Positions 7,854-30,695 of a stretch of 64,000 nucleotides of DNA are shown piece after piece (the first letter of the stretch is position 1; each line of letters begins with the position of its first letter). The translations under genes and the position numbers were made by a program. The stretch covers positions 43,041 to 107,040 of the forward strand of contig JAOKVV010000004.1 of assembly GCA_028336925.1 (NCBI GenBank). The letters run 5' to 3'. The notes beneath the pieces were generated by a model. That model had not been told where the DNA came from. It did not search any database and saw only the letters and a list, made by a program, of their open reading frames with translations. Source of the DNA: Vicingaceae bacterium. GTDB taxonomy: Bacteria > Bacteroidota > Bacteroidia > Flavobacteriales_E > Vicingaceae.

Positions 7854-8624
7854 ATGATTCAATTAAAAGATCAGATGGGGAGCTTGCTTAATTTTAAGCA
7901 GGCTCCTTTGTGTATTGTGTCGTTGGTTCCTTCTATCTCAGAGCTTATTTGGGATTTAGGTTTACACGATGAGTTGGTAGGTGTAACTAAGTTTTGCATC
8001 CACCCGGAAAATCTTCGAAAAGATAAAGCAATTGTAGGTGGCACCAAAAACGTAAAGATAGAACGTTTGTTGGCATTAAACCCAGATTTTGTAATAGCCA
8101 ACTTAGAAGAAAACACCAAAGAAGAAATCGAAATAATTTCTAAACTTATCCCTACTTACATAAGCGATATTAACACGGTAGAGCAAATGCTCCAGTTCAT
8201 CAATGACATTGGATTGATTTGTAATCGTGAAAAAGAAGCAGAAGAAATAGCTAAAAAAGTATCCGAAACTATGGCAGCAATTCCTTCAAAACCTAAAAAC
8301 AAAAAAGCCATTTATCTCATTTGGAATGAACCATTCATGAGTATCGGTGGCGATACGTTTATTTCTCACATTATGCAGCAAGTTGGATTTGAAAACTGCT
8401 TAAAAGAAATAGACCGTTACCCGACTCTTACCTTTGAAGATATTCAACAAATCTCTCCTGACGAAATTTGGCTTTCGTCTGAGCCATTTCCATTTAAAGA
8501 AGCTCACCAAAAAGAGTTACAAAATATATTTCCCTATGTTACAGTTCGCTTGGTAGATGGAGAAGCATTTTCATGGTACGGCAGCCGTATTTTTAAATTA
8601 AAAGATTACCTCTCCTCTTTTTAA
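7854..8624 (+). CDS. BtuF/TroA-fold helical-backbone metal receptor without signal peptide
   Basis: A 256-residue member of the periplasmic binding protein family for cobalamin, haem or siderophore-type ligands. The family segments SLVPSISELIWDLG, VGVTKFCIHP and NPDFVIA are present, followed by the long connecting helix and second lobe. Unusually, there is no signal peptide or lipobox: the chain begins directly with a short soluble segment. The protein is therefore predicted to be cytoplasmic, as in a known Bacteroidota subgroup of this fold. No permease or ATPase is adjacent. It follows cbs by 11 bases. A ligand role is not assignable; a link to a corrinoid or metal cofactor is only speculation. 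Confidence 0.8.
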   Translation: MIQLKDQMGSLLNFKQAPLCIVSLVPSISELIWDLGLHDELVGVTKFCIHPENLRKDKAIVGGTKNVKIERLLALNPDFVIANLEENTKEEIEIISKLIPTYISDINTVEQMLQFINDIGLICNREKEAEEIAKKVSETMAAIPSKPKNKKAIYLIWNEPFMSIGGDTFISHIMQQVGFENCLKEIDRYPTLTFEDIQQISPDEIWLSSEPFPFKEAHQKELQNIFPYVTVRLVDGEAFSWYGSRIFKLKDYLSSF

Positions 8625-8684
8625 TGAAACGCAATCAACTCTTCCCATAAAATTTTAATAACTTTATTCGAATTATTTAGACCA

Positions 8685-10964
8685 ATGTTCAACCGTTTTC
8701 ATTACATCGCAATCCTTATTTTCTTGCCGCTTTTTAGCTTCGGGCAAAAGGTAGGTGTAGTATTAAGCGGAGGTGGAGCAAGCGGAGCAGCCCATATTGG
8801 AGTACTTAAAGCATTAGAGGAAAACAACATTCCAATAGATTATATCACCGGAACCTCAATAGGAGCATTGGTGGGCGCGTTGTATGCATCAGGAAAAACA
8901 CCTAACGAAATTGAAGCGCTTTTTATATCCGATGATTTTATAAAATGGTCTAATGGGGTTACACTGGAAAAATATACTTTTTTCTATAAGGAAGAAGAAC
9001 CAAGCGCCGAAGTAGTTAATGTTGATTTTAATTTGGATACACTATTCGAAGCCAACCTCCCAGTTAGCTTTATCTCTTCGGTACCAATCGACTTTGGCCT
9101 AATGCAACTATTTGCAGCTCCATCGGCTGCTGCCAACTATAATTTTGATAGCTTAATGATTCCATTTCGGTGCATAGCAGCCGACATAACCAATGGAGCT
9201 GAATATCCATTTTACTCCGGTAATATAGCCACTGCAGTGAGAGCATCGATGGCTTATCCATTTTATTTATCGCCTATCAAGCACAATGGCAGTTTACTCT
9301 TTGATGGAGGGTTGTATAATAACTTTCCATCAGATATCATGTATCATGACTTTATGCCAGATTTCATCATTGGCAGTAATGTTTCTCGCAAGGATCCAAC
9401 ACCGATGGAAGATAATTTAGTGTCGCAAATAAAAAGTATGTTAAGTAAAGAATCAAACTACACTCTTGAATGCGCCGACGGAATTATCATAAAACCTGAA
9501 ATAGAAGAAATAACATTATTAGATTTCGATCAGAACTATAAAGCTATTCAAGAAGGATATAAATCAGCTCTAGCTAGCATCGACTCTATTAAACTTAAAA
9601 TAAAGGATTTTAGAAAACTAGAGGATTTAGATACCAAAAGAAAAGCATTTTTAAACAAGAACAAGGCTCTTAAATTTAGAAATGTCAGTATTTCAGGTAT
9701 TGACGAACAGCAGACTAACTATATCTTTAATAGAGCACTCAGAAAGAAACCTTATTTTGAATTTGATAAATTAGAGCAATCCTATATGCGACTTTTATCA
9801 GACAGAGGGATAAAGTCTATTTACCCCGATACCAAATTTGATACAGCGTCAGGGTATTATGACCTCAATTTGGATATAAAAAAGGAAAAAAGCTTCCAAG
9901 TAGAATTTGGTGGTATTATTGCTGCACGACCCATTAATACAGGATATGTTGGACTTCGGTACAATAGACTAAAAAAAACAAACTTGACATTAAGTGGCAA
10001 CACCTACTTTGGGAAACTACACAGTGCAGCTAAAATTGCAGGCAGAATTGAATTTCCAAACAGGCTTCCAATCTATACGGAAATTAGCTATACAGCAACA
10101 AAGTGGGACTTCTTTAATAGTTCTACCACCTTATTAGAAGATGTAAACCCCTCCTACTTGATTAATAATGAAAATTTTGTTGATCTAAAGTTTGGAACTC
10201 CAATAAGATTTAAAGGAAAATTTGAACTTGGGGCTACCTTATTTGAATTAGAAAATGAATATTACCAAAACAATAGTTTCTTAAGAACAGATACCGCTGA
10301 TATTAACTTATTTCGAGGATTTAGCCCTTACTTTAGTTATAGCAGAAATACATTAAATCAAAAGCAGTTTGCGAACTCAGGCAGCCAATTGGAACTGAAG
10401 GCTAGATGGGTATATGGAGATGAAAAAAATATACCAGGATCCACCTCCTTAGAAACAGAAAGTATTACAAAAAAGAGAGATTGGTTCGAATTGCGATTTA
10501 AATATCAAAATTATTTCTTCAACAAAAATAAATTTAAGTTAGGCGCTCAAATAGAATTTATTTCTACCAACCAACCTTTCTTTGATAACTATACCGCAAC
10601 AGTTTTAATTGCTCCTTCCTTTCAACCATTACCTGAAATGAGCACGCTATTCCAATATCAGTATAGAACTCATTCATACAGTGCTATTGGTCTAAAAACT
10701 ATTTATTCATTTACTAAAAAACTAGATTTAAGAGTAGAAGGGTATATTTTTCAACCCTATCAAGAAGTTATTGATAATTCTAAAAAAGCAGGATATGGCG
10801 AAATTCTGTCTACTCGAGATTTTATTGGGACCATAACAGCTGTCTACAATACCCGAATTGGACCAATCGCGGCATCGTTTAATTATTACGACAGCGCAGT
10901 AAACCAATATAAATTCCTATTGCACTTCGGCTATATATTATTCAACAAGAAAGCCCTAGAGTAA
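8685..10964 (+). CDS. Patatin-like phospholipase with POTRA and C-terminal beta-barrel (type Vd autotransporter-like)
   Basis: A 759-residue protein with a signal peptide ending near FSFGQ (residue 21). The patatin domain has the oxyanion loop SGGGASG (28-34), the nucleophile elbow GTSIG with S58, and the catalytic DGG motif with D207, so the Ser-Asp dyad is intact. A POTRA-like segment follows (about 330-405), then about 350 residues of alternating aromatic/polar strands typical of an outer-membrane barrel, ending with a strand close to the C-terminus (LLHFGYILF). The layout matches PlpD/FplA-type (type Vd) proteins, whose lipase domain is exposed at or released from the surface. No terminator is seen; it converges with the MacB-like gene. 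Confidence 0.9.
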   Translation: MFNRFHYIAILIFLPLFSFGQKVGVVLSGGGASGAAHIGVLKALEENNIPIDYITGTSIGALVGALYASGKTPNEIEALFISDDFIKWSNGVTLEKYTFFYKEEEPSAEVVNVDFNLDTLFEANLPVSFISSVPIDFGLMQLFAAPSAAANYNFDSLMIPFRCIAADITNGAEYPFYSGNIATAVRASMAYPFYLSPIKHNGSLLFDGGLYNNFPSDIMYHDFMPDFIIGSNVSRKDPTPMEDNLVSQIKSMLSKESNYTLECADGIIIKPEIEEITLLDFDQNYKAIQEGYKSALASIDSIKLKIKDFRKLEDLDTKRKAFLNKNKALKFRNVSISGIDEQQTNYIFNRALRKKPYFEFDKLEQSYMRLLSDRGIKSIYPDTKFDTASGYYDLNLDIKKEKSFQVEFGGIIAARPINTGYVGLRYNRLKKTNLTLSGNTYFGKLHSAAKIAGRIEFPNRLPIYTEISYTATKWDFFNSSTTLLEDVNPSYLINNENFVDLKFGTPIRFKGKFELGATLFELENEYYQNNSFLRTDTADINLFRGFSPYFSYSRNTLNQKQFANSGSQLELKARWVYGDEKNIPGSTSLETESITKKRDWFELRFKYQNYFFNKNKFKLGAQIEFISTNQPFFDNYTATVLIAPSFQPLPEMSTLFQYQYRTHSYSAIGLKTIYSFTKKLDLRVEGYIFQPYQEVIDNSKKAGYGEILSTRDFIGTITAVYNTRIGPIAASFNYYDSAVNQYKFLLHFGYILFNKKALE

Positions 10965-10980
10965 ATCTCAAAGCTGAATC

Positions 10981-12222
10981 CTATTCATATCGCAACGACT
11001 CTATTGGGTCTAAATCTGCTGCTCTCTTTGCCGGATAAATACCGGCTACCACTCCAACAATTACGCAAAGAATTACTCCTAAAATCATCCAATCCCACGG
11101 AATAATAAAGCCTGCACCAACAAACCCAGCGACAACATTTCCAATAATGATACCCATAACAATCCCTACTGCTCCTCCAATTTGGCAAACAATAATGGCT
11201 TCCACTAAAAACTGCATAAGAATAAACCGACTACTAGCCCCAAGCGCCTTTCGAACCCCAATTTCTTTTGTGCGCTCAGTAACGGTTACTAGCATAATGT
11301 TCATCAATCCGATTGCCGCTCCAAGCAAAGTAATAAAACCAATTATATATGCTGAGAAGCTCACCATTGATAAATTTTCAATCAGCAAACTTGAAACACT
11401 GTCTGATCGTGTCACATCAAAAGACTCTTCTTCCTTAATGTCGTCGCCACGAACCACCCTAAAAGTTCCTTTTGCTTCTCCAATAGCGCCATCTAATTCC
11501 TCGGGAGATTCTACCATTGTGTTAATAAGGTAAGAGGTACTTGCTGAGGAAAAATATTGTCGTGCGTTTTGCAGTGGAATTAGCGCATTTTTATCAGCAC
11601 TGAAACCCATGCTACTCCCTTTCTCTTTTAAGACCCCAACTACTCTATACTTACTAGCACCTATAGAAATAATTTTGTCTATGGCTTCTTCCTTACTACC
11701 AAATAGAGTGGTTCGTATTTCATGACCGATAATTACGGCATGAGCTCCGGAATTGACTTCAGACAAAGAAAAGTTTCTACCCTCAGCTATTTCATAACCT
11801 GAAGTAATGGTATAGTTTTCGTCGCATCCAAAAACGAAAATATTGGGATTCGTTTTTTCCGATTTGTATTTCAACGTTGCTGTAGCAGTAGCCCGAGTGC
11901 TAATAGAAACGGTGGACGGATAAGAAAACTGCTCTTTAAAATCTTTTGCATTCTGAAAGTCGATAATAGGATAAACTTTAGCTCGTTTCCCTCTCTTACC
12001 CATTCTGATATTACTTCCTTCATTCTTTATAGAGAAAGTATTAGACCCCATGCTACTAAAATTACTGCTAATGGAACTTTTTATTGCATCTATTGAGGTA
12101 AGAATCCCGACTAAAGCACATATTCCAATTGCTATAATTAACACAGTAAGAACAGTTCGCAGCAATTGAGTTTTTACTGATTTAAAAGATTCCTTTATAT
12201 TTTCTAAAACGACGTCTTGCAT
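10981..12222 (-). CDS. MacB/FtsX-like ABC transporter permease
   Basis: A 413-residue permease of the MacB_PCD plus FtsX type: a first membrane helix near residues 22-45, a periplasmic domain of about 220 residues, and three C-terminal helices with the coupling loop VTERTKEIGVRKALGAS. The final AKRAADLDPIESLRYE is the usual C-terminus of the family. It probably forms an efflux or mechanotransmission pump with a separate ATPase, none of which is adjacent. An in-frame ATG at 12261 would add 13 residues; I prefer the second ATG at 12222 because family members begin shortly before the amphipathic ENIKESFKSVK segment. The choice of start is uncertain. Confidence 0.85.
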   Translation of the reverse strand: MQDVVLENIKESFKSVKTQLLRTVLTVLIIAIGICALVGILTSIDAIKSSISSNFSSMGSNTFSIKNEGSNIRMGKRGKRAKVYPIIDFQNAKDFKEQFSYPSTVSISTRATATATLKYKSEKTNPNIFVFGCDENYTITSGYEIAEGRNFSLSEVNSGAHAVIIGHEIRTTLFGSKEEAIDKIISIGASKYRVVGVLKEKGSSMGFSADKNALIPLQNARQYFSSASTSYLINTMVESPEELDGAIGEAKGTFRVVRGDDIKEEESFDVTRSDSVSSLLIENLSMVSFSAYIIGFITLLGAAIGLMNIMLVTVTERTKEIGVRKALGASSRFILMQFLVEAIIVCQIGGAVGIVMGIIIGNVVAGFVGAGFIIPWDWMILGVILCVIVGVVAGIYPAKRAADLDPIESLRYE

Positions 12223-16014: not shown

Positions 16015-18324
16015 ATGAAATCGACCACTCTCTTCAGTCTATTTTTTCTTCTTTCTCACATGCTCATTTCACAGAATGAGACATTAATAGATATCGATAA
16101 TTTTGACCAACTATTAATGGAGGTAGAACTCCAAGAAGCTATTAATGAAGCTAGAATTGCTAAAAAACTTTCTGAAGTTTTACGAATAGAATCACTAGAT
16201 GCTGCAGCTTTTGACCAAGCCGAATACAATCAGAAAAACAATAAAGAAGGCCACGACCAAGATGATGAGGACCAAAAAGAGGTAACTCAAAGAGTGCGAC
16301 ATTTTGGAGGTATGTTTTATGAAATGGGTGAATTAATTTACACTGCATCAATCGGAATACCTATAAAGGTAAAATCTGGCGCAACGCCGTTAACAATTAG
16401 CAGCTACGAACAGGCAGCTACCATAGCTATTGAGGTCTGGTTAAAAAATGAAAATACAAAAACCATTTTACTTGACAGCAGCTATTATTCATTGGGCGTA
16501 GCAGCTAGTTTCAATACAGAACGCAATGAAATTTCTATCATTTCCATACTAGCATCTCCACCATTTGAGTTAAAAGGAGAAAAAGACCGAGTTGATGAAT
16601 ACGCGTTAAAGGAATACAATAAAACTATTTGTGATGGCTTCGTACGAACAAACTCGTTTCTACCTGAGCTACTTTCAGATAAAATAATTATTGAAGATAA
16701 AACTATCTATTTAATCAATAATGATCGGGAAGTATTAAGTGAAATTTTGAGTGATGGAAGGGATGGCTTTGCAGTAGACTTAATTTCTGCTGAACAGTTT
16801 CATTGCAATGGAGGAAACGGACTATTTCCAAGTAACTTTCATGAGGGACTACTTTTAAGACCTATAAAGGGAGCAACTTTAAACTACAAAACTCCTGAAG
16901 GCGAATACTTAGATCGTATAAAACTAGGCGAATTACCTCAAACCTACTCTACAAAAACAACAAATATAAATTTAATACTGTTTAAGGATGCTGTAGTATG
17001 CAACTACATTCCATTCAATAAAATGGATGCCAAAAATTTACATTGGATAGAACCTGAATGGGAATTAGATATCTCAGAGCAAACAAATGGGCTTATGGTA
17101 GATGTTACCAGTTACCCGACAGAAAACATTTTCGAAATAAAAACCTTCATTGAATCATTAAAAACAAATAATACAAAAAACGTCGATATCAACATTGCAA
17201 GCAGCCCTGTATTAACTGCATCAATTGATTCTATTAAACTTACGCTAAACAAAGCCACCCAAGAAATCGTAGATAAAGTAAAACTAACTTTTATAAATAA
17301 CGAAAATACAATAGCTGACTTTATATCAAACCGAATGATTGCCTTAGAAATCAAAGATTTAAATGAGGATGAAAAATGGCAAGCGATAAGAGAAACAGAC
17401 GACCAGGAACTCATTGAGTTCATAAGAAGGAACCACCATACAACCATAACGGTTACAACAGAAGCCGAGTTGGCTAACTACACATCAGAAGAACTAAAGA
17501 CCAACTACCTAACAGCTTTAGAAAACAATAAACTAAATACAGCAAAAACACTTCAATCTGAGCAAATAAGAAGACTCAAATCGGGCGATGAATCTGCAAA
17601 GTCAGGATTAGCTACAAATAATATAAAGCAAACAAAAGAAAACCTAACCCTTATTTCAAATGCAACAATTACAAGCCTTGAAATTAATTCTGACAATCTT
17701 ATTAATAGAGAAATGGTCCGAAAGACACTATTAGGGCTTTACCTAATTGATAAAACAAATCAAATAATTGCATATAACCTATGTCTTTCCATTTTATACG
17801 CATGGGAATTAGGAAAAAAAGCACCCGTAACCCCAAGTGAATGGGAAGAATACTATAAATCGGCTAGCGCAAATGGGGTAATTGATTCTGAGAAATTGAA
17901 AAAATTAAGCACTAATTTTCATTTATTATCAGCTGATTATTATTACGACAAGGGAAATATTCGAGAAAGGAAAAAGAGTTTGGAATCTGCTTATGCCAAT
18001 ATAATTTCATCGAAAAGCACCCTAAAAGAATCGATCATGTATGCCCAATATTTCATGTTTCAACTTCAAATTAACTGGGCTGCAACGATATTAAAAAAAG
18101 AATTAAAACGAGGCTTTGATCTTGAAGTAGCTGAACAATTAGTAAGTTTAGCTTCCTACCCGTCTTCAGAAATTAGTCCTACTGAAATCAGCGAATTACT
18201 ACATGCTATAAACCTAGCAGATCATGAGAGGTTTTGCAAAATATTTAAAGACCAGAAAGCAAACTACCTATTTTTAAAAGATTCATTAATCAAAGTAGAT
18301 TATTGCCGTGATTGTATAAATTAA
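16015..18324 (+). CDS. Large secreted protein with CAP/SCP-like N-terminal domain, function unknown
   Basis: A 769-residue protein with a signal peptide ending near LISQ (residue 20). Residues 25-190 resemble a CAP (SCP/PR-1) domain: an opening helix LLMEVELQEAINEARIAKKL, a DAAAFDQAEYNQ segment where the family has its first helix pair, and a YYSLGVAASFN...ISIISIL strand pair like the end of the domain. The histidine/glutamate set of CAP proteins is not obvious, so I rate the match moderate. Residues 200-400 are beta-rich with FHCNGGN; residues 480-769 are helical and TPR-like, ending with cysteines CRDC. It starts 11 bases past the terminator of the previous gene. No function is assigned. 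Confidence 0.75.
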   Translation: MKSTTLFSLFFLLSHMLISQNETLIDIDNFDQLLMEVELQEAINEARIAKKLSEVLRIESLDAAAFDQAEYNQKNNKEGHDQDDEDQKEVTQRVRHFGGMFYEMGELIYTASIGIPIKVKSGATPLTISSYEQAATIAIEVWLKNENTKTILLDSSYYSLGVAASFNTERNEISIISILASPPFELKGEKDRVDEYALKEYNKTICDGFVRTNSFLPELLSDKIIIEDKTIYLINNDREVLSEILSDGRDGFAVDLISAEQFHCNGGNGLFPSNFHEGLLLRPIKGATLNYKTPEGEYLDRIKLGELPQTYSTKTTNINLILFKDAVVCNYIPFNKMDAKNLHWIEPEWELDISEQTNGLMVDVTSYPTENIFEIKTFIESLKTNNTKNVDINIASSPVLTASIDSIKLTLNKATQEIVDKVKLTFINNENTIADFISNRMIALEIKDLNEDEKWQAIRETDDQELIEFIRRNHHTTITVTTEAELANYTSEELKTNYLTALENNKLNTAKTLQSEQIRRLKSGDESAKSGLATNNIKQTKENLTLISNATITSLEINSDNLINREMVRKTLLGLYLIDKTNQIIAYNLCLSILYAWELGKKAPVTPSEWEEYYKSASANGVIDSEKLKKLSTNFHLLSADYYYDKGNIRERKKSLESAYANIISSKSTLKESIMYAQYFMFQLQINWAATILKKELKRGFDLEVAEQLVSLASYPSSEISPTEISELLHAINLADHERFCKIFKDQKANYLFLKDSLIKVDYCRDCIN

Positions 18325-22342: not shown

Positions 22343-23209
22343 TTGAAAAAGCATTTCTTATTATTTTTTCTAAGCCTTACCTTAGTTACCCACCTATCCA
22401 AGGCTCAAAAAACTGCAGACACTTCACCCTCAGGAGATTCGAAATCACAGGGAATATCCGTATCACCTGCACACTTTCACCTTTCAATTGAACCAGGCGA
22501 CCAAAAAACAAAAAAAATTGCAGTAACAAATAACACAGATAAAACTCAATTATTCCAAGTAAAAGTTTATGACTTTAACATGAATGGTAAAGGAAAAAGT
22601 AGTTTTATCCCTAAGGGAGAAGGAGAATACTCACTATCTAAGTATATGAACATCTCACCAACATTTTTTGAAGTCGCGTCAGGAGAAAAAAAAGAATTTT
22701 CATACACTGTTTCAATACCTGATTCAGATGAAGGAAATAGAGCCGCATGGTCTGTAATTATGATAGAACAGGCGGAGCCTAAAAAAGAACTATCACCAAT
22801 AAAGAAAAGTGCAGGCACTATAGCTCTAGGTGTTATCCCAACTTATGCCTTTGGTGTTTACATTTATCAAAACCCACCAAATGTTTCAGTTAATAAAGTA
22901 GAGATTACCGACTTTGCTTTTACAACTGATCAAGGATCAAATTTTATCAACATTGAAACTAAGAATATCGGTGATGGAATTGCTTATTGTAACTCCTATG
23001 TTGACCTTATTAATAATGAAACAGGCGAACAGAGAAGATTAGAAGTAAAACGTTTTACAATAGTTCCTTCTTTAATCCGAGATTTTAAATTTCAATTACC
23101 AGAACTTCAAAATGGGAGTTACACCGCGATAGGAGTGCTGGATTTTGAAAATGCCGAAGAAATACAAGCAGCAAAAATGCAATTCACAATAAACCAACCT
23201 ATTAAATAA
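22343..23209 (+). CDS. PapD-like periplasmic chaperone (two Ig-like domains)
   Basis: A 288-residue secreted protein that starts at TTG (no in-frame ATG fits the signal peptide) and has a signal peptide ending near LSKAQ (residue 22). Residues 38-145 form an Ig-like domain: ISVSPAHFHLSIEPGDQ, then KKIAVTNNTDKTQLFQVKVYD, and SPTFFEVASGEKKEFSYTVS, the same order as strands A1, B-C and D of PapD/FimC chaperones. Residues 180-288 form a second Ig-like domain. Gram-positive WxL-interacting proteins (DUF916 plus DUF3324) share this layout, so that is the alternative reading. It is first of a four-gene cassette with two small secreted beta-proteins and a barrel protein. No enzyme function is expected. 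Confidence 0.78.
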   Translation: MKKHFLLFFLSLTLVTHLSKAQKTADTSPSGDSKSQGISVSPAHFHLSIEPGDQKTKKIAVTNNTDKTQLFQVKVYDFNMNGKGKSSFIPKGEGEYSLSKYMNISPTFFEVASGEKKEFSYTVSIPDSDEGNRAAWSVIMIEQAEPKKELSPIKKSAGTIALGVIPTYAFGVYIYQNPPNVSVNKVEITDFAFTTDQGSNFINIETKNIGDGIAYCNSYVDLINNETGEQRRLEVKRFTIVPSLIRDFKFQLPELQNGSYTAIGVLDFENAEEIQAAKMQFTINQPIK

Positions 23210-23210
23210 A

Positions 23211-23999
23211 ATGATTAAAATGAAAAAACTAAATCTACTTCTCGCCAATATTCTTTTGATAGGTATTGGAGTATCAAATGCACAACTTATTGATGAAAAA
23301 GATGTAACCATAACTATGGACCTTCAACCGGTACTGCAGTTAGAAATGACTACATCGGACCAAATAGAATTTGTATTTGATGATATTAACGATTATTATG
23401 CAGGTATTACAAGATATGCAGCAACAGTTCTAAAAGTTAGTTCTACAGTAAGTTGGGATTTATACGCAGTAGGGAGATCTAATGGGAGCAATGGCCCAGA
23501 ATTTTGGGATCAACAAATCGATTATGGAAATAATAATGCTAATGCTATTCCTGATTTGCCATTATCATTATTAGAGCTTCGTCAAACACAACCAAATACA
23601 GGAGATGGAGCGGCAGTAGGTACATTCTCTGACTATTCTCAAGCGTTATCTGATGTAAATACTCCAAGCGCAGGCAATAGCTTATATGTAAATGCAGGTA
23701 CAAATACGCCTCCTACAACAAACGACAAATACATCGCAGGTCATGCAGGAACAACGGGTGTAGCAGGGGATGATTTTATGCCAGGCGGAAGCTACATGAC
23801 ACAAAATACGGTAAACTCAAACTATTACTATACAATTGATTACAGAATACTACCAGGCTTACCTGCAATTTTCCCAATGGCAGCTGATGCAGATGGAGCA
23901 ACATTTGAGGATTTAGAAACTGTAAATGGCGGTGGATCTTATGCAGAGCCAGGCGTATATACAATGTACGTGCAATATATATTATTAGAAGATCAATAA
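23211..23999 (+). CDS. Secreted beta-protein with W-x-L motif, putative major fibre subunit
   Basis: A 262-residue protein with a signal peptide ending at SNAQ (residue 25); the second ATG at 23220 is an alternative start. The mature part is beta-rich and low in charge. VSSTVSWDLYAV holds a W-x-L triplet at residues 82-84, and the chain ends with PGVYTMYVQYILLEDQ (247-262), an amphipathic strand at the extreme C-terminus. The protein of the gene starting at 24060 ends with the same pattern. The middle (about 95-215) is Asn/Gly/Thr-rich. The features fit a pilin-like subunit or a WxL-domain surface protein. It starts one base after the chaperone stop and is followed by a terminator-like hairpin. 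The name is inferred from context. Confidence 0.7.
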   Translation: MIKMKKLNLLLANILLIGIGVSNAQLIDEKDVTITMDLQPVLQLEMTTSDQIEFVFDDINDYYAGITRYAATVLKVSSTVSWDLYAVGRSNGSNGPEFWDQQIDYGNNNANAIPDLPLSLLELRQTQPNTGDGAAVGTFSDYSQALSDVNTPSAGNSLYVNAGTNTPPTTNDKYIAGHAGTTGVAGDDFMPGGSYMTQNTVNSNYYYTIDYRILPGLPAIFPMAADADGATFEDLETVNGGGSYAEPGVYTMYVQYILLEDQ

Positions 24000-24007
24000 G
24001 AATCGTT

Positions 24008-24040
24008 AAAAGGAATCACTTAAAACGTGATTCCTTTTTT
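24008..24040 (+). terminator. Strong hairpin inside the fibre cassette
   Basis: AAAAGGAATCAC (24008-24019) pairs perfectly over 12 bp with GTGATTCCTTTT (24027-24038) across a 7-base loop and is followed by T residues to 24040. It lies directly after the first small-subunit gene and before the second, so it should act as a partial terminator or 3'-end stabiliser within the operon. Confidence 0.8.
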
Positions 24041-24059
24041 ATCTATTAATCTAACATAT

Positions 24060-24671
24060 TTGAGAGCAAATTTACTCCTCTGTTCTATATCTTTATTCTT
24101 TACAAATTCACTTTACAGCCAAATACATTGTGGTTTAGTTGAAATTGAGCCAAACACAAGTATAAATAATTCAATAACGTTTGATAGTTTTCAGCGTTAC
24201 CAAGGAGGCTACACCATCAACAGTGCAGCTAGAATTAGAGTTAAAGTTGAAGATAAAAGTACACCTGATCCACTTTGCTCTTGGAGCCTTAGAATGATAG
24301 TGGACAATAATTCTGTAAGTGGAACTCCCATAGATGAATGGGAGGAGTTATACCTATATGGTTTAGGTAATAGTTCAAATCCGACAATTGATGCATTAGA
24401 AATTAGAGTAAGAAATGAATGCAGTACATCCCCTATAGATGGTGTATTTACTAATTTCAATAACGATCAGGATCTTATTGAAATAATTGCCCCATTACTA
24501 CCAATAACACCTGCGGGAAGTTGCACACTCAACGTGAATGGACCGGGGAGCTATCAAACTAATTATAATGAATTTAATTTTAATATTGATATTAGAGTAA
24601 AGCCAAATTTCACCTTCAATCCCGGGCTTTTTGAACTAAACATTAAGTTTATCTTAGAAGAAAACCCATAA
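24060..24671 (+). CDS. Secreted beta-protein with W-x-L motif, putative minor fibre subunit
   Basis: A 203-residue protein. A GTG at 24027 is in frame but forms the right arm of the hairpin at 24008-24038. The TTG at 24060 gives a standard signal peptide (MRANLLLCSISLFFTNSLYSQ), so I take it as the start. CSWSLRM carries W-x-L at residues 75-77 after a strand IRVKVED, and the chain ends with PGLFELNIKFILEENP, which aligns residue for residue with the end of the preceding subunit. Paired cysteines occur (C24, C73, and two later). Placed after the hairpin and directly before the barrel gene, it may be a tip or adaptor subunit. The role is inferred. Confidence 0.65.
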   Translation: MRANLLLCSISLFFTNSLYSQIHCGLVEIEPNTSINNSITFDSFQRYQGGYTINSAARIRVKVEDKSTPDPLCSWSLRMIVDNNSVSGTPIDEWEELYLYGLGNSSNPTIDALEIRVRNECSTSPIDGVFTNFNNDQDLIEIIAPLLPITPAGSCTLNVNGPGSYQTNYNEFNFNIDIRVKPNFTFNPGLFELNIKFILEENP

Positions 24672-24679
24672 TCCAAAAG

Positions 24680-27616
24680 ATGTCTTCTAGTAAATATACC
24701 CCTGTAATTAACTTACTAAAGCTAGTTTTAACTTTGCTACTTTCTGTTAATGCTATGAATAGCGTTGCGCAAGATAGCTTAATTAACAATCAAAATAAGT
24801 TAATTATAAACTTTAGAGACAGCACACAAGAATTAGTAAAAGGTCAATTAGTTACCAATGTTCTCCATATCATCAATCAAACTAATGAAACAAAAACTTT
24901 TGTATATGATATTTTACACCCTTCAGAGTGGACTCGACTAGATGACAAATTAGGGTACTCCTTGGAACAAGGTGATGAAATTTTCATTCCAATCATACTT
25001 ATCCCAAAACAAATAAGCAATACAAACACTGATATCTTCATCAATGCATATTTACTCGATGAGGAAAATCAACAAATTGGAAATGCTTACTTCTCCCTAT
25101 ATACAAAGAAGGAAGTTTCATGGGACGCTAGATCAATATCATCAGAAAGAATATACCTCAGGAATGGTGAAAAAAACACCACTATTAACTACCAGATCGT
25201 GAATACTGGAAATTTTGATCAGGAGATCATATTTTCCACAAATGCTTTAAGAAATAATATTATTTTAAAGGATAGTTCAGGAAGTAGACTCATAACTAAG
25301 CAACAAATAAAACTAAAAAGATATGAAGACACCATCTTTGACATTTCAGCCGAAGTCCTTCCTTTTATGGAAAGAAACTTTAAGAAAGTATCCGCTCTTA
25401 CTTATCAACCAAGTAGACTCACTGAGATAGAAAAATTTACATTATTCCTTCAAACAAATGAACCCAAACTTAAGGGGGAAAACCAATATTCTAGAAATAG
25501 TAAAATAGATATTTTGCGTTTAAACAGCCAAAAAGAAGTCAATCAATTTGGAGACAATCAATTGCCGCTAACAGTTGAAGCAAATATTCAAAATGTGTTA
25601 TCTGAATTCTCATTTATGAATATAAATGCAAGGGGTTTTAAACAACTTAATAAAGATGCTAGCTTATCCTATTTTGCTCAGCTCAACTACAATGAATCTT
25701 ATTGGAATAGTCAATCAATTATGAATTCGCCTTGGTATGTTGGGTATTTTGATGAAAGAAAAACCATTGAAATCGGAAATATATCAGGAAATATTAATGG
25801 TATTAATAATTTTGGAAAAGGCTTTAAAGTTTCCTACAAATATTTTGAAAATCAGAAATCAACAGTATACTATTTAAGAAACCCAACATTAGTTGGACCT
25901 TCACAAAACGAGTCTGTTGGTATAGAACATGAATCTAGGATTAATAATAACTTTAAAGTAATTGCAAAACTTGGTAGAAATATAAATCGAATAAGTGGCA
26001 ATGAAATTAATGCCTATTCAATTAGTCCAACCTTTACAATAAATAAAAACCATTCAATTAACTTACTTGCAACAATTACAGATAGACAGAAAATTGGATT
26101 AAGAAACACAGAAATTGGAAGCCTTTTTGGAGGTAGCTATTCAACTAACTACTTAGAAAAAAGAGCTAATTCTTCAATTACGTTTAGATTTAATGATAGA
26201 AAATTTAGCTCAGGCGGTTTTTCTAGAACGATTATTAATCAAAGAACCAGGTATACTATTAATAAAAAATGGAACTTTTTTATTAATAATAACTATCAAA
26301 AAATAGATTCAAGAAAGCAACTAAACACAAGTGTACCTCTACAAGAATATTTTTTCAATAATTTCTTTTTCTCAACAACAAGCAAAAATGGTACTTGGCA
26401 GCCAGGAGGATATTATAACGTAAACAATGTTCGCTTAAATAAAACACATAGTAGAGGAGTTTCATTTAGATATGCGACCTATAACTTTAAAAAAAATTCT
26501 CTAGTATCCCTTTTATTTAAAGCCGGATATAATGACCCGGTTGATTTTATAGACATCCCGAATTATTTCAACTTTGAATTTACGAGTATACTCAGATATA
26601 AAGTTTGGAATATCACTACCAGATATCATTATGGGGCACAGTCTATACCTGAATTACTTAATATGAGAGAGCAAAATTATACCGCTCAAAAACTAAGACT
26701 TTCAGCCAACAATCAATACCAATTTAAGAACCCAAAATATCTTTTTGAGAATACCTTATCCTATAATTTTACAAATCGCTTTAATAGCCATAACATTGGT
26801 CTATTCCCGCAAATCTTTTACTTTACTAATAATGGATATAGATTTGGATTAATGGTAAACTATAATCTAAGATCTAATAATTATTCTTCTTTATTTGATA
26901 ATTACCAGAATAACTCTATTGGAAGCAGTAATGACTTAGGAAATGTAACACAATCTACATTTAACCTTTCAATAAACATCAAAAAAGATTTTGGTATCCC
27001 ACTACCATTTTTAAAAAGCACCTCATCAACTGCAAAATTTAAAGTATTTTATGACTTAAATGGTAATGGACAATATGATGAAAATGAAATTTCAATTGAA
27101 AACACCGTACTTAGAATAAATGAATATGAAATAATTACTGATGAAAATGGTGAAGCGGGATTAACTAACTTGTCGTTTGGAACTTATCAACTAGGAATCA
27201 TTAGTTTAGATAAAATAAAAGGTTGGTTTCCTGAAATAGAAGATAGTATAGAGATATTCAATAGTAGAGTTATTTATGTGCCTTTCGTAAAAGGAATAAA
27301 AGTAATAGGAGAAGTTAATATTGATCAACAAAAGATAAGTATCGCAGATGAAAAGGATCAAATTAACCTTGAAAGAATCAAAATTACCGCCAATGGCAGA
27401 AGCGTATACAATACCTTAACCGATTCTGAAGGAAAGTTTGAATTTTATTTACCTGTTGGCCGTTATACTTTAACATTAGACGAAAGCATATTAGGTGATC
27501 GATTTAAGCTCGTAGAAAATAATATTGCAATAACACTAACTAAAAATAAAGAGGGATTATATTCCTCCTTTTATATTTTAGAGAAGAGAAGAAACATAAA
27601 TATTAAGACCTTTTAA
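24680..27616 (+). CDS. Usher-like outer-membrane beta-barrel protein
   Basis: A 978-residue exported protein with a signal peptide ending near NSVAQ (residue 31). Residues 35-265 are two Ig-like domains that resemble periplasmic chaperone or fibre modules. Residues about 300-775 are a run of alternating aromatic/polar strands with short turns (for example YFAQLNYNESYWNSQ), as in a large outer-membrane barrel. Residues 783-978 are two carboxypeptidase-regulatory-like beta-sandwiches, the first with a calcium-type loop DLNGNGQYDENE (792-803). Length and order match fimbrial ushers, including the alpha-type with a similar C-terminal module, but no diagnostic plug sequence is recognisable. It follows the second subunit by 8 bases. 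It could instead be an unrelated surface barrel. Confidence 0.7.
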   Translation: MSSSKYTPVINLLKLVLTLLLSVNAMNSVAQDSLINNQNKLIINFRDSTQELVKGQLVTNVLHIINQTNETKTFVYDILHPSEWTRLDDKLGYSLEQGDEIFIPIILIPKQISNTNTDIFINAYLLDEENQQIGNAYFSLYTKKEVSWDARSISSERIYLRNGEKNTTINYQIVNTGNFDQEIIFSTNALRNNIILKDSSGSRLITKQQIKLKRYEDTIFDISAEVLPFMERNFKKVSALTYQPSRLTEIEKFTLFLQTNEPKLKGENQYSRNSKIDILRLNSQKEVNQFGDNQLPLTVEANIQNVLSEFSFMNINARGFKQLNKDASLSYFAQLNYNESYWNSQSIMNSPWYVGYFDERKTIEIGNISGNINGINNFGKGFKVSYKYFENQKSTVYYLRNPTLVGPSQNESVGIEHESRINNNFKVIAKLGRNINRISGNEINAYSISPTFTINKNHSINLLATITDRQKIGLRNTEIGSLFGGSYSTNYLEKRANSSITFRFNDRKFSSGGFSRTIINQRTRYTINKKWNFFINNNYQKIDSRKQLNTSVPLQEYFFNNFFFSTTSKNGTWQPGGYYNVNNVRLNKTHSRGVSFRYATYNFKKNSLVSLLFKAGYNDPVDFIDIPNYFNFEFTSILRYKVWNITTRYHYGAQSIPELLNMREQNYTAQKLRLSANNQYQFKNPKYLFENTLSYNFTNRFNSHNIGLFPQIFYFTNNGYRFGLMVNYNLRSNNYSSLFDNYQNNSIGSSNDLGNVTQSTFNLSINIKKDFGIPLPFLKSTSSTAKFKVFYDLNGNGQYDENEISIENTVLRINEYEIITDENGEAGLTNLSFGTYQLGIISLDKIKGWFPEIEDSIEIFNSRVIYVPFVKGIKVIGEVNIDQQKISIADEKDQINLERIKITANGRSVYNTLTDSEGKFEFYLPVGRYTLTLDESILGDRFKLVENNIAITLTKNKEGLYSSFYILEKRRNINIKTF

Positions 27617-28064: not shown

Positions 28065-30695
28065 ATGTTTAGAATAATAGTATCCTCTCTATTAATTATC
28101 CTTTGCTTCAATAGCAATCTATATGCTCAAAAAACGTTCAGTAAAAAAGAAGAAAAATTACTAACACAAAAAGGAGAAGCTTATTACAATGATGAATATT
28201 ATCTAAAAGCTGCAAAAATATTTGAGCAGCTAAATAAGTCAAATCCTAAAGATTTGTATTATGAATTAATGGTTGGAATCTGTTACAGCTTCCTAAACAA
28301 CAAAAAGGAAAGCGCACTAGATATTCTCCTAACGGTAAAAAGCAAAAACCCTAATTACAACGAAGTCAATTTCTTTTTAGCTAGGGCTTATGCAGTAAAT
28401 CACCAATTTGATCAAGCGATCACGTGGTTTAATAAGTACCTCTCCAATCCTGATCTTTTGCCAGAGGATAGAGATAAAGCAAGATTACATATTGCCAATT
28501 GTAATAACGCGAAAGGAATTGTACCTGATAGTTTAGCGTTGGTCATTGAGAACATTGGTCCTCCAATTAATACAAAATATGAGGAATATGTCCCAATTAT
28601 TACGCCTGATGAACGTATATTAATTTTTACAGATCGCGGAGAAAAAAGTTTAGGAGGAAAAATGGATCGTTCCGGCAATTTTGATCCAAAAGGTGAGTAT
28701 TATGAAGACGTTTTAATTTCTTATAAATTAGGAGATAAATGGACTGATCCCAAAAGCATTGGCAGCAATATCAATTCGAGCAAACACGATGCTAGCATTG
28801 CTATATCAGCTAGTGGAAACAAGCTATTTACCTATAGAAGTAGCAATAAAAATGAAGGTGATATATATCTCAGTGAACTTAAGAAAGGAATGTGGACTAC
28901 ACCATCAGTCTTAAACTCTGAAATAAACTCTGAATCATGGGAAGGAAGTGCAAGCTTAACAAGTGATGAGAGAACATTGTACTTCACAAGTGAGCGACCA
29001 GGGGGTTATGGAGGTAGAGATATTTACAAAGCCGTGTTAAAACCAAATGGCCAGTGGGGAAATGTAATGAATCTTGGACCAAAAATTAATACTAAATATG
29101 ATGAAGATGCTCCATTCATTCATCCGGATGGAAGAACCTTGTATTTCAGCTCTAAAGGTCATAATAGTATTGGAGGTTATGACATCTTTTACACTTACTT
29201 AGATGAAAATGAATGGGACGCTCCCTCAAATGTAGGCTATCCTGTAAATACCATCGAAGATGACCGATATTATGTATTAACCGCAGATGGGTCTAAGGGA
29301 TATTATTCATCAGCAGGAAAAGATGACTCTTATGGCGGAAATGATATTTATGTAGTGAGCCCAGGGCACTTTGGTACACGACCAATCCTAGCATTAGTAG
29401 TAGGAGTTACAAAAGTAGACGGAAGAGAGGCTCCTGCAAAAATTATTGCAACTAATTTAGAAACAAATGAATACGAAAATAGTACTGTTTTAGATGAAAA
29501 AACTGGCCAGTTTATGATTTCTCTAATTCCAGGAAAAAAATATCGAATTGCTATCGAAATTGAGGGAGCAAAAACTACTTATGAATATATTGATGTTGAA
29601 TCTGTAGAAACATTCGTGCAGGTAAATCACAACATAGATTTATACACTGATGAAATACCTTTAACTGAGAAAAATATTTTAGAAAACGAAAAATCACAAG
29701 GCAGTTCATTACAAGACAAACTTAATGAGCAGATTATGCGTGTAAAGGAATTTGCAAGTGATAGTATAGAATATTCAAAAATTGATTTAAACAAACGTAT
29801 TTCTAAATTAGAAAAATACAATAGAGAGGTAAGGGAAGCATCACAAAAAGACAAATTATCAAGTGGTGGGTTAGAAGCTGCGAATACAAAACCAATAGCC
29901 GGTCTTTCTTTTAAAGTAGAGTTAGGCGCTTTTAAAGACACAAATGAATTTGACTTGTTGCAATTTACCAAATATGGTAAGATTTCAAGAACTCTATATC
30001 CCGATGGATTTTTTCGATATACTTTTGGTCCTTTTGAAACGCTAAAGGATGCTGAAAACTTTCGAGAAATGCTAATAGAAAAAGAACCTGAAACAGCTGA
30101 TGCTTTTATTACAGTTTTTGTTTTTGGTCAAAGAAAAACAGTTGAGGAGTTTACTGAGGAATATACCCTTTTTGGACTTGAACCTATTGAGAACGCTCTA
30201 TCTAAATCAGAAATTAATAGCCCCCCTATTAAGAATATTGATAATCTACCACAAAAGGAAGATGGAAATTTATTACAAAATATAGAGCTGAGAACCGACC
30301 CATGTGACAATTATACCCTAGATGCTTTTACAGCATTTATTTTAAAAGATATAAAAGTCGAAGCGAACTACAATCGTTTATTAGAATTAGTAGGATCAAT
30401 ATGTCACCCCGATTTACATTTTGAAGTTCAAATTGGTGCATACAGAAAGCCAAATAATTTTAAATATGATCACTTATTATCTTTCGGCGATCCGTTGATT
30501 AGAAACTACCAAGATGAAATTACCAGATTTACACAAGGTGATTTTAAACCCTTTGGACAGGCAGAGGTATTGAGGCAACAAATTATCTCGAAAGGAACAA
30601 AAGATGCATGGATTACTCCATTTTACAAAGGAAAGCGTCTGTTGATGCAAGACTTGGTGAAAGGAACGTATGAAAATGCTCTAGGACTTAACTAA
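28065..30695 (+). CDS. PorE-like protein: TPR, PD40 beta-propeller, carboxypeptidase-regulatory-like domain, two SPOR domains
   Basis: An 876-residue exported protein with a signal peptide ending at LYAQ (residue 22). TPR helices span about 25-150. PD40/WD40-like propeller repeats span about 165-430, with DERTLYFTSERPGGYGGRDIY, DGRTLYFSSKGHN and GYYSSAGKDDSYGGNDIYVV. A carboxypeptidase-regulatory-like fold follows (440-530), then a charged coiled-coil-like linker (535-600) and two SPOR-like domains (615-690, FKVELGAF; 785-860, FEVQIGAY). The first three modules match PorE of the type IX secretion system, but SPOR domains replace its OmpA-like end, so peptidoglycan is probably still the anchor, through denuded glycan strands. 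Its stop overlaps the stop of the convergent helicase gene. Confidence 0.82.
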   Translation: MFRIIVSSLLIILCFNSNLYAQKTFSKKEEKLLTQKGEAYYNDEYYLKAAKIFEQLNKSNPKDLYYELMVGICYSFLNNKKESALDILLTVKSKNPNYNEVNFFLARAYAVNHQFDQAITWFNKYLSNPDLLPEDRDKARLHIANCNNAKGIVPDSLALVIENIGPPINTKYEEYVPIITPDERILIFTDRGEKSLGGKMDRSGNFDPKGEYYEDVLISYKLGDKWTDPKSIGSNINSSKHDASIAISASGNKLFTYRSSNKNEGDIYLSELKKGMWTTPSVLNSEINSESWEGSASLTSDERTLYFTSERPGGYGGRDIYKAVLKPNGQWGNVMNLGPKINTKYDEDAPFIHPDGRTLYFSSKGHNSIGGYDIFYTYLDENEWDAPSNVGYPVNTIEDDRYYVLTADGSKGYYSSAGKDDSYGGNDIYVVSPGHFGTRPILALVVGVTKVDGREAPAKIIATNLETNEYENSTVLDEKTGQFMISLIPGKKYRIAIEIEGAKTTYEYIDVESVETFVQVNHNIDLYTDEIPLTEKNILENEKSQGSSLQDKLNEQIMRVKEFASDSIEYSKIDLNKRISKLEKYNREVREASQKDKLSSGGLEAANTKPIAGLSFKVELGAFKDTNEFDLLQFTKYGKISRTLYPDGFFRYTFGPFETLKDAENFREMLIEKEPETADAFITVFVFGQRKTVEEFTEEYTLFGLEPIENALSKSEINSPPIKNIDNLPQKEDGNLLQNIELRTDPCDNYTLDAFTAFILKDIKVEANYNRLLELVGSICHPDLHFEVQIGAYRKPNNFKYDHLLSFGDPLIRNYQDEITRFTQGDFKPFGQAEVLRQQIISKGTKDAWITPFYKGKRLLMQDLVKGTYENALGLN

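Follow-up and report, generated by a model that had tools for sequence, protein, structure and literature searches.

A conserved four-gene operon of Bacteroidota that probably encodes a donor-strand surface pilus

Four consecutive genes of a Vicingaceae bacterium, lying at positions 22343-27616 of the window (the whole 64,000-nucleotide stretch of DNA that was analysed), probably form one operon for a donor-strand surface pilus; the probability of this reading is put at about 0.8. The products would be a chaperone, a shaft pilin, a terminal pilin without a donor strand and an outer-membrane assembly protein. The operon is conserved, its two pilins are homologous to each other, the first pilin is homologous to the filament proteins TLP-1 and TLP-2, and the chaperone is homologous both to pilus chaperones and to WxLIP proteins.

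All four genes are on the forward strand. From 5' to 3' they encode the putative periplasmic pilus chaperone of WxLIP/PapD type (22343-23209, TTG start, 288 residues, two Ig domains), which keeps its position in relatives; pilin 1, the predicted shaft subunit (23211-23999, 262 residues); pilin 2, the predicted terminal and probably tip subunit (24027-24671, GTG start, 214 residues, four invariant cysteines); and the usher-like outer-membrane protein (24680-27616, 978 residues). A whole-genome search found the identical gene set and order in eight genomes, a contig end cutting one of them. When 84,980 species genomes were scanned with the pilin 1 alignment, 77 loci were obtained, the records of which are all labelled as Bacteroidota groups (Flavobacteriales, Bacteroidales, and records labelled Chitinophaga, Sediminibacterium and Sphingobacterium). 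Most of these loci keep the full four-gene set where the contig extends far enough; the variants have the chaperone gene moved between or behind the others, or a longer second subunit. The window's own genome, which is about 70% complete, holds one copy of the operon, and the viral contigs searched gave no match. The carriers include the cultured organisms Wenyingzhuangia heitensis DSM 101599, W. aestuarii DSM 105044, Flavicella sediminum and F. marina, so that the pilus proposal is directly testable.

More distant relatives were sought with a profile built from 17 chaperones (E <= 1e-6), which detected chaperone relatives in 88 of 395 sampled Bacteroidota genomes. Nine of the divergent loci were inspected. 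In four of them (L164, L167, L168 and L172) the chaperone match stands beside an usher-like match, with small secreted proteins near; the other five are incomplete, unmatched or masked by overlapping open reading frames. Divergent Bacteroidota operons have a classical layout, in which small pilins are accompanied by a chaperone, a protein that carries a pilin domain at its C-terminus, and an outer-membrane protein.

Several features of individual loci were noted alongside. Pilin 1 is duplicated at L040:5654-7283, as two complete tandem genes in a single operon, and tandem, near-identical small pilin genes (about 180 residues) lie upstream of the chaperone in two divergent systems (L129:1808-4520 and L130:11303-14530). 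In a Flavobacteriaceae MAG (L054:5588-6467 and 8050-11034) the chaperone and usher-like genes are each split into two open reading frames, through decay or sequencing errors. The gene that follows the operon in the window (28065-30695) lies outside the conserved four-gene set and encodes a TPR and PD40 propeller protein resembling PorE/CHU_0125; it has a sub-threshold SPOR match, and may perhaps be linked to the pilus through peptidoglycan. Elsewhere in the window, at 16015-18324, there is a gene for a 769-residue secreted protein that begins with a CAP (cysteine-rich secretory protein) domain and has a long C-terminal part lacking annotation.

The sequence-only reading of this DNA had started from the two small secreted proteins, in which it saw a common W-x-L triplet and a common C-terminal strand led by a PG pair. 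The open reading frames are where it placed them, and both features prove to be conserved in the two families. In pilin 1 the triplet is W-D-L (residues 82-84, 23454-23462); the W is found in 66 of 76 family members and is replaced by F in the other ten, and the D and L are invariant. In pilin 2 it is W-S-L (residues 86-88, 24282-24290), with the W in 68 of 68 members and the L in 67. The position given earlier for the first W, 82, is correct, whereas the W of pilin 2, reported as residue 75, is residue 86 counted from the GTG codon; W75 corresponds to a start lying 11 codons further downstream. The GTG start aligns with the start in a relative of the same genus. A W-x-L within the first 40% of both window proteins arises in 0.6% of shuffles. 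A single alignment column holds the triplet in 66 of the 76 pilin 1 and 67 of the 68 pilin 2 sequences, against about 13 members per family expected by shuffling. The C-terminal strands are PGVYTMYVQYILLEDQ in pilin 1 (23949-23996) and PGLFELNIKFILEENP in pilin 2 (24621-24668), and PG begins exactly 16 residues before the C-terminus in 64 of 76 and 43 of 68 members, respectively.

The two families are related, as had been supposed: their alignments (76 and 68 sequences) match each other in hhalign with a probability of 99.6% (E 1.9e-24), and smaller alignments of 8-9 sequences still give 97.8%. The families being homologous, the shared W-x-L and C-terminal strand are genuine and were inherited from a common ancestor. 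No Pfam match to a pilin family occurs in any of the 76 and 68 members, spore coat U and DUF4402, named for comparison by the earlier reading, having been covered through Pfam only, and comparison of the pilins with the EcpA, CS1 and FimA types gave no homology (hhalign below 13%).

A direct link to filaments is provided by pilin 1. TLP-1 and TLP-2 are filament proteins solved by electron microscopy, and the depositions (9ikj and 9ikk) each contain 16 identical chains. We take them to be the CryoSeek pond-water filaments, TLP presumably being the name of the sampled pond. Against solved structures, the pilin 1 profile matches TLP-2 (9ikk) with E 6e-59 and TLP-1 (9ikj) with E 3e-57, and the single window sequence, residues 26-260, matches both with E 3e-44. 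The homology extends along the whole mature chain, and the deposited chains start at the predicted mature N-terminus of pilin 1 and carry a similar donor-like strand, VTVTMDLQPVLQL. TLP-1 and TLP-2 share 94.9% identity, and their identity with the window pilin 1 is about 40%; within the collection, the pilin 1 members closest to them are L084 (55%), then L077 and L085. The pilin 2 profile matches the same two structures weakly (E 3e-4). On this homology, pilin 1 is a filament subunit and a relative of TLP-1 and TLP-2. The sequence-only reading had offered as its alternative that the two proteins are pilins, the C-terminal strand completing a neighbouring subunit, and this is the better reading, given the full-mature-length homology of pilin 1 with the TLP proteins and the fact that a large outer-membrane protein is encoded next.

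Pilin 1 has a predicted N-terminal donor strand, VTITMDLQPVLQL (residues 32-44, 23304-23342), in which hydrophobic residues alternate. A strict form of this alternating pattern is present at the N-terminus of 72 of 76 pilin 1 members and only 4 of 68 pilin 2 members; the pattern misses FimA and EcpA, is no general detector of donor strands, and is used here for the contrast between pilin 1 and pilin 2 only. In the profile alignment pilin 2 begins after the donor-strand segment of pilin 1, and from this pattern pilin 2 appears to have no free donor strand. In some pilin 2 members the N-terminus is longer and contains cysteines.

Natural gene fusions have the same bearing. In five relatives (L086 and L091-L094) the second gene encodes 441-461 residues, the N-terminal half being pilin 2 and the C-terminal half pilin 1. 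Where the two halves meet, about ten residues separate the final pilin 2 strand (for example, QPGVYRLDMNITIADD) from the equivalent of the pilin 1 donor strand (for example, LYSLTIEIQPILQL) that comes after it. This layout fits what donor-strand complementation predicts and would place pilin 2 before pilin 1 in the fibre, although the five fusions probably represent one or a few events. Among the divergent operons, L136 encodes one pilin with the donor-strand pattern and one without, and L129-L135 and L137 encode small pilins together with a protein of 340-480 residues that ends in a pilin domain, a layout similar to that of type 1 pili with FimH. Because of the contrast in donor-strand pattern, the fusions and these divergent layouts, the product of the gene at 23211 is probably the shaft pilin, and that of the gene at 24027 the terminal pilin, most likely located at the tip.

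The upstream two-Ig protein had been suggested as a WxLIP-type partner of the two small proteins, and this assignment stands. It matches Pfam WxLIP_PGBD (DUF916) with 30.3 bits (cut-off 27.3), and 61 of 68 members of its family match this model at E <= 0.1. The same family was compared with classical (FimC-type) and alternative (EcpB/EcpE-type) pilus chaperones from E. coli K-12 and from enterobacterial and other plasmids; the hhalign match covered both Ig domains and had a probability of 95.4% (E 2e-8), or 98.0% (E 2.6e-13) when the divergent Bacteroidota relatives were included, the alignments spanning 194-215 columns. By the same method, alternative and classical chaperones match each other with 77%, reversed controls reach 0.2-0.3%, and the tandem-Ig region of the outer-membrane protein about 11%. 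The window protein itself stays below the Pfam PapD_N cut-off (13.3 bits against 23) and has no Pfam match to WxLIP_HBD (DUF3324), which is weak in 2 of 68 relatives. A divergent homologue, L171, passes PapD_N with 32.7 bits, and another, L172, is above the WxLIP_HBD cut-off; the chaperone family therefore bridges PapD and WxLIP. PDB matches of the chaperone profile to synaptotagmin C2 domains were set aside as generic beta-sandwich similarity.

In the chaperone, the segment GVIPTYAFGVYIYQ (residues 163-176, 22829-22870) is predicted to be the donor (G1) strand. It aligns with the G1 strand of FimC, QLAIISRIKLYY, and the QNPP immediately after the segment is kept in 67-68 of 68 members. The classical Arg8/Lys112 carboxylate anchor is absent, H44 and Y173 occupying those positions; the anchor Arg is retained in several divergent Bacteroidota chaperones. 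Non-classical chaperones lack the classical Arg/Lys anchor as well and use other anchors (PMC4654587). No C-terminal transmembrane helix is found in the window protein, the sequence of which ends in EEIQAAKMQFTINQPIK.

The protein encoded at 24680-27616 always accompanies the other three. Its N-terminal region is Ig-like and its middle rich in aromatic residues; at the C-terminal end there are two transthyretin/SpaA-like domains, with SdrD_B, SpaA and CarboxypepD matches at residues 785-935. The middle part (about residues 290-765) is predicted to be a barrel, for which the strand pattern is only suggestive. The whole protein is clearly related to its large counterparts in the divergent Bacteroidota systems (hhalign 100%, E 1e-57). 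Homology with ushers is undetectable by the searches made: there is no Pfam usher match, and hhalign gives 0.6-1.4% with six ushers of the classical and six of the alternative class, whereas the two classes match each other with 97.3%. Including the divergent relatives brought nothing beyond weak similarity of the C-terminal domains; one divergent homologue has a sub-threshold CooC_C match (25.5 against 29 bits). The protein occupies the place of the usher in the operon, and the role of an outer-membrane platform may be assigned to it on this basis.

Some usher-like proteins carry additional parts. Those at L055:8003-13342 and L060:7996-12513 have 1779 and 1505 residues, with N-terminal extensions of 550-800 residues made of charged, coiled-coil-like repeats (for example, RIAQERIIAEQIAQRKQDSINTAIAQQKAQREADSI), possibly a spacer that spans the periplasm. 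SPOR (peptidoglycan-binding) domains are fused to the C-termini of the usher-like proteins of L087, L074, L167 and L170, which suggests that the platform is anchored to the cell wall.

From sequence, gene order and the natural fusions we infer donor-strand exchange, a tip position for pilin 2 and export of the fibre, and the process might be described as follows. The pilins would be exported by Sec, and in the periplasm the two-Ig chaperone would hold them, binding along the conserved C-terminal strand of each pilin and filling the gap in the incomplete Ig fold of the pilin with one of the chaperone's strands. The N-terminal strand of pilin 1, VTITMDLQPVLQL, would then displace the chaperone strand in a neighbouring subunit, giving rise to a filament like those of TLP-1 and TLP-2. 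Pilin 2, which would share the fold of pilin 1 but lack a free N-terminal strand, could act only as a strand acceptor and would end the fibre, most likely at its tip. The outer-membrane platform would receive the chaperone-pilin complexes and export the fibre.

Three other explanations deserve to be weighed. The filament might be real and the outer-membrane protein something other than an usher, such as an anchor or a porin, the fibres being put together on the cell surface or leaving the cell in some other way. The undetectable usher homology is in favour of this, as are the SPOR fusions in several homologues, which suggest anchoring to peptidoglycan; but the gene order, the constant presence of the protein in the operon, the homology of the chaperone, and the succession of an Ig-like N-terminal region, a barrel-like middle and C-terminal beta domains all speak for an assembly platform, and this alternative to an usher-like mechanism is considered unlikely. 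Still less likely is the proposal of the sequence-only reading, that both proteins are WxL-like domains in a Gram-negative cell. They would then form a surface complex that does not polymerise, held by the WxLIP partner, and the W-x-L conserved in both pilins and the WxLIP_PGBD match of the chaperone would be explained. Membership in the WxL family is, however, rejected. Pfam WxL (PF13731) finds nothing in the window's genome, with Lactococcus lactis as a positive control, and nothing among the 76 and 68 family members; the second W-x-L that defines the family is absent from the last 25 residues of all 144. The chaperone has no DUF3324 match, the operon includes an outer-membrane gene, and the homologues of pilin 1 include filament subunits. 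The WxLIP protein is predicted to supply a strand that completes WxL (PMC10599100), and for this reason the resemblance in fold and mechanism may be real: it is plausible, by analogy, that the system works as WxL and WxLIP do at that level.

The least credible explanation, to which hardly any weight is given, is one of the known fibre or secretion routes of Bacteroidota, with the pilins being type V fimbriae or cargo of the T9SS. The host phylum would agree with it, and the downstream protein encoded at 28065 resembles PorE/CHU_0125-type envelope proteins, but that gene is not part of the conserved set of four. A lipobox-like motif occurs in 1 of 76 pilin 1 and 0 of 68 pilin 2 members, and the pilins match neither fimbrillins nor the T9SS C-terminal domain; both candidates were rejected on these lipobox and profile tests.

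The donor-strand pilus that is the preferred reading resembles the chaperone-usher pili (FimC/FimD, EcpB/EcpC) in having a chaperone homologous across both Ig domains, pilins with an N-terminal donor-like strand and a C-terminal strand, a terminal subunit that seems to have no donor strand, and an outer-membrane gene within the operon. It differs from them in that its outer-membrane protein and pilins are not detectably homologous to theirs and that other residues stand at the classical carboxylate anchor. It also differs in host: a 2015 account gives the range of chaperone-usher systems as Proteobacteria, Cyanobacteria and Deinococcus-Thermus (PMC4654587), and the window system, in Bacteroidota, is outside it. 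The Gram-positive WxL/WxLIP clusters (PF13731, PF06030, PF11797) likewise combine a WxLIP_PGBD protein with two small secreted W-x-L beta proteins, but the window has no WxL profile match, a single W-x-L, a chaperone without a C-terminal membrane helix, and an outer-membrane gene. The type V pili of Bacteroidales (FimA/Mfa1) belong to the same phylum and are surface filaments of beta-rich subunits; they are derived from lipoproteins, unlike the window pilins, which have no lipobox or fimbrillin match. A more general and tentative proposal, held at rather less than even odds, is that these pili form a separate branch of donor-strand pili spread through the phylum Bacteroidota, with an exporter that does not descend from known ushers, and that, as the WxLIP-type chaperone would show, Gram-positive WxL/WxLIP surface complexes and Gram-negative chaperone-usher pili come from one ancestral chaperone-subunit system.

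The entries of TLP-1 and TLP-2 come without an operon; the window adds a chaperone, a second pilin and an outer-membrane protein. According to a 2026 review, filaments concentrated from pond water had not been conclusively identified, and proteomics and metagenomics had given no matching sequences (PMC12967142). If TLP-1 and TLP-2 are among those filaments, the operon supplies them with a phylum, a relative of the subunit, a chaperone and a probable exporter; it is the probable assembly machine for filaments so far known as structures without one. Pili that use PapD-type chaperones would extend to Bacteroidota, where the chaperone has a relative in 88 of the 395 genomes sampled, and the Gram-positive WxLIP proteins and the Gram-negative pilus chaperones, which have been studied apart, are linked by the family of the window chaperone.
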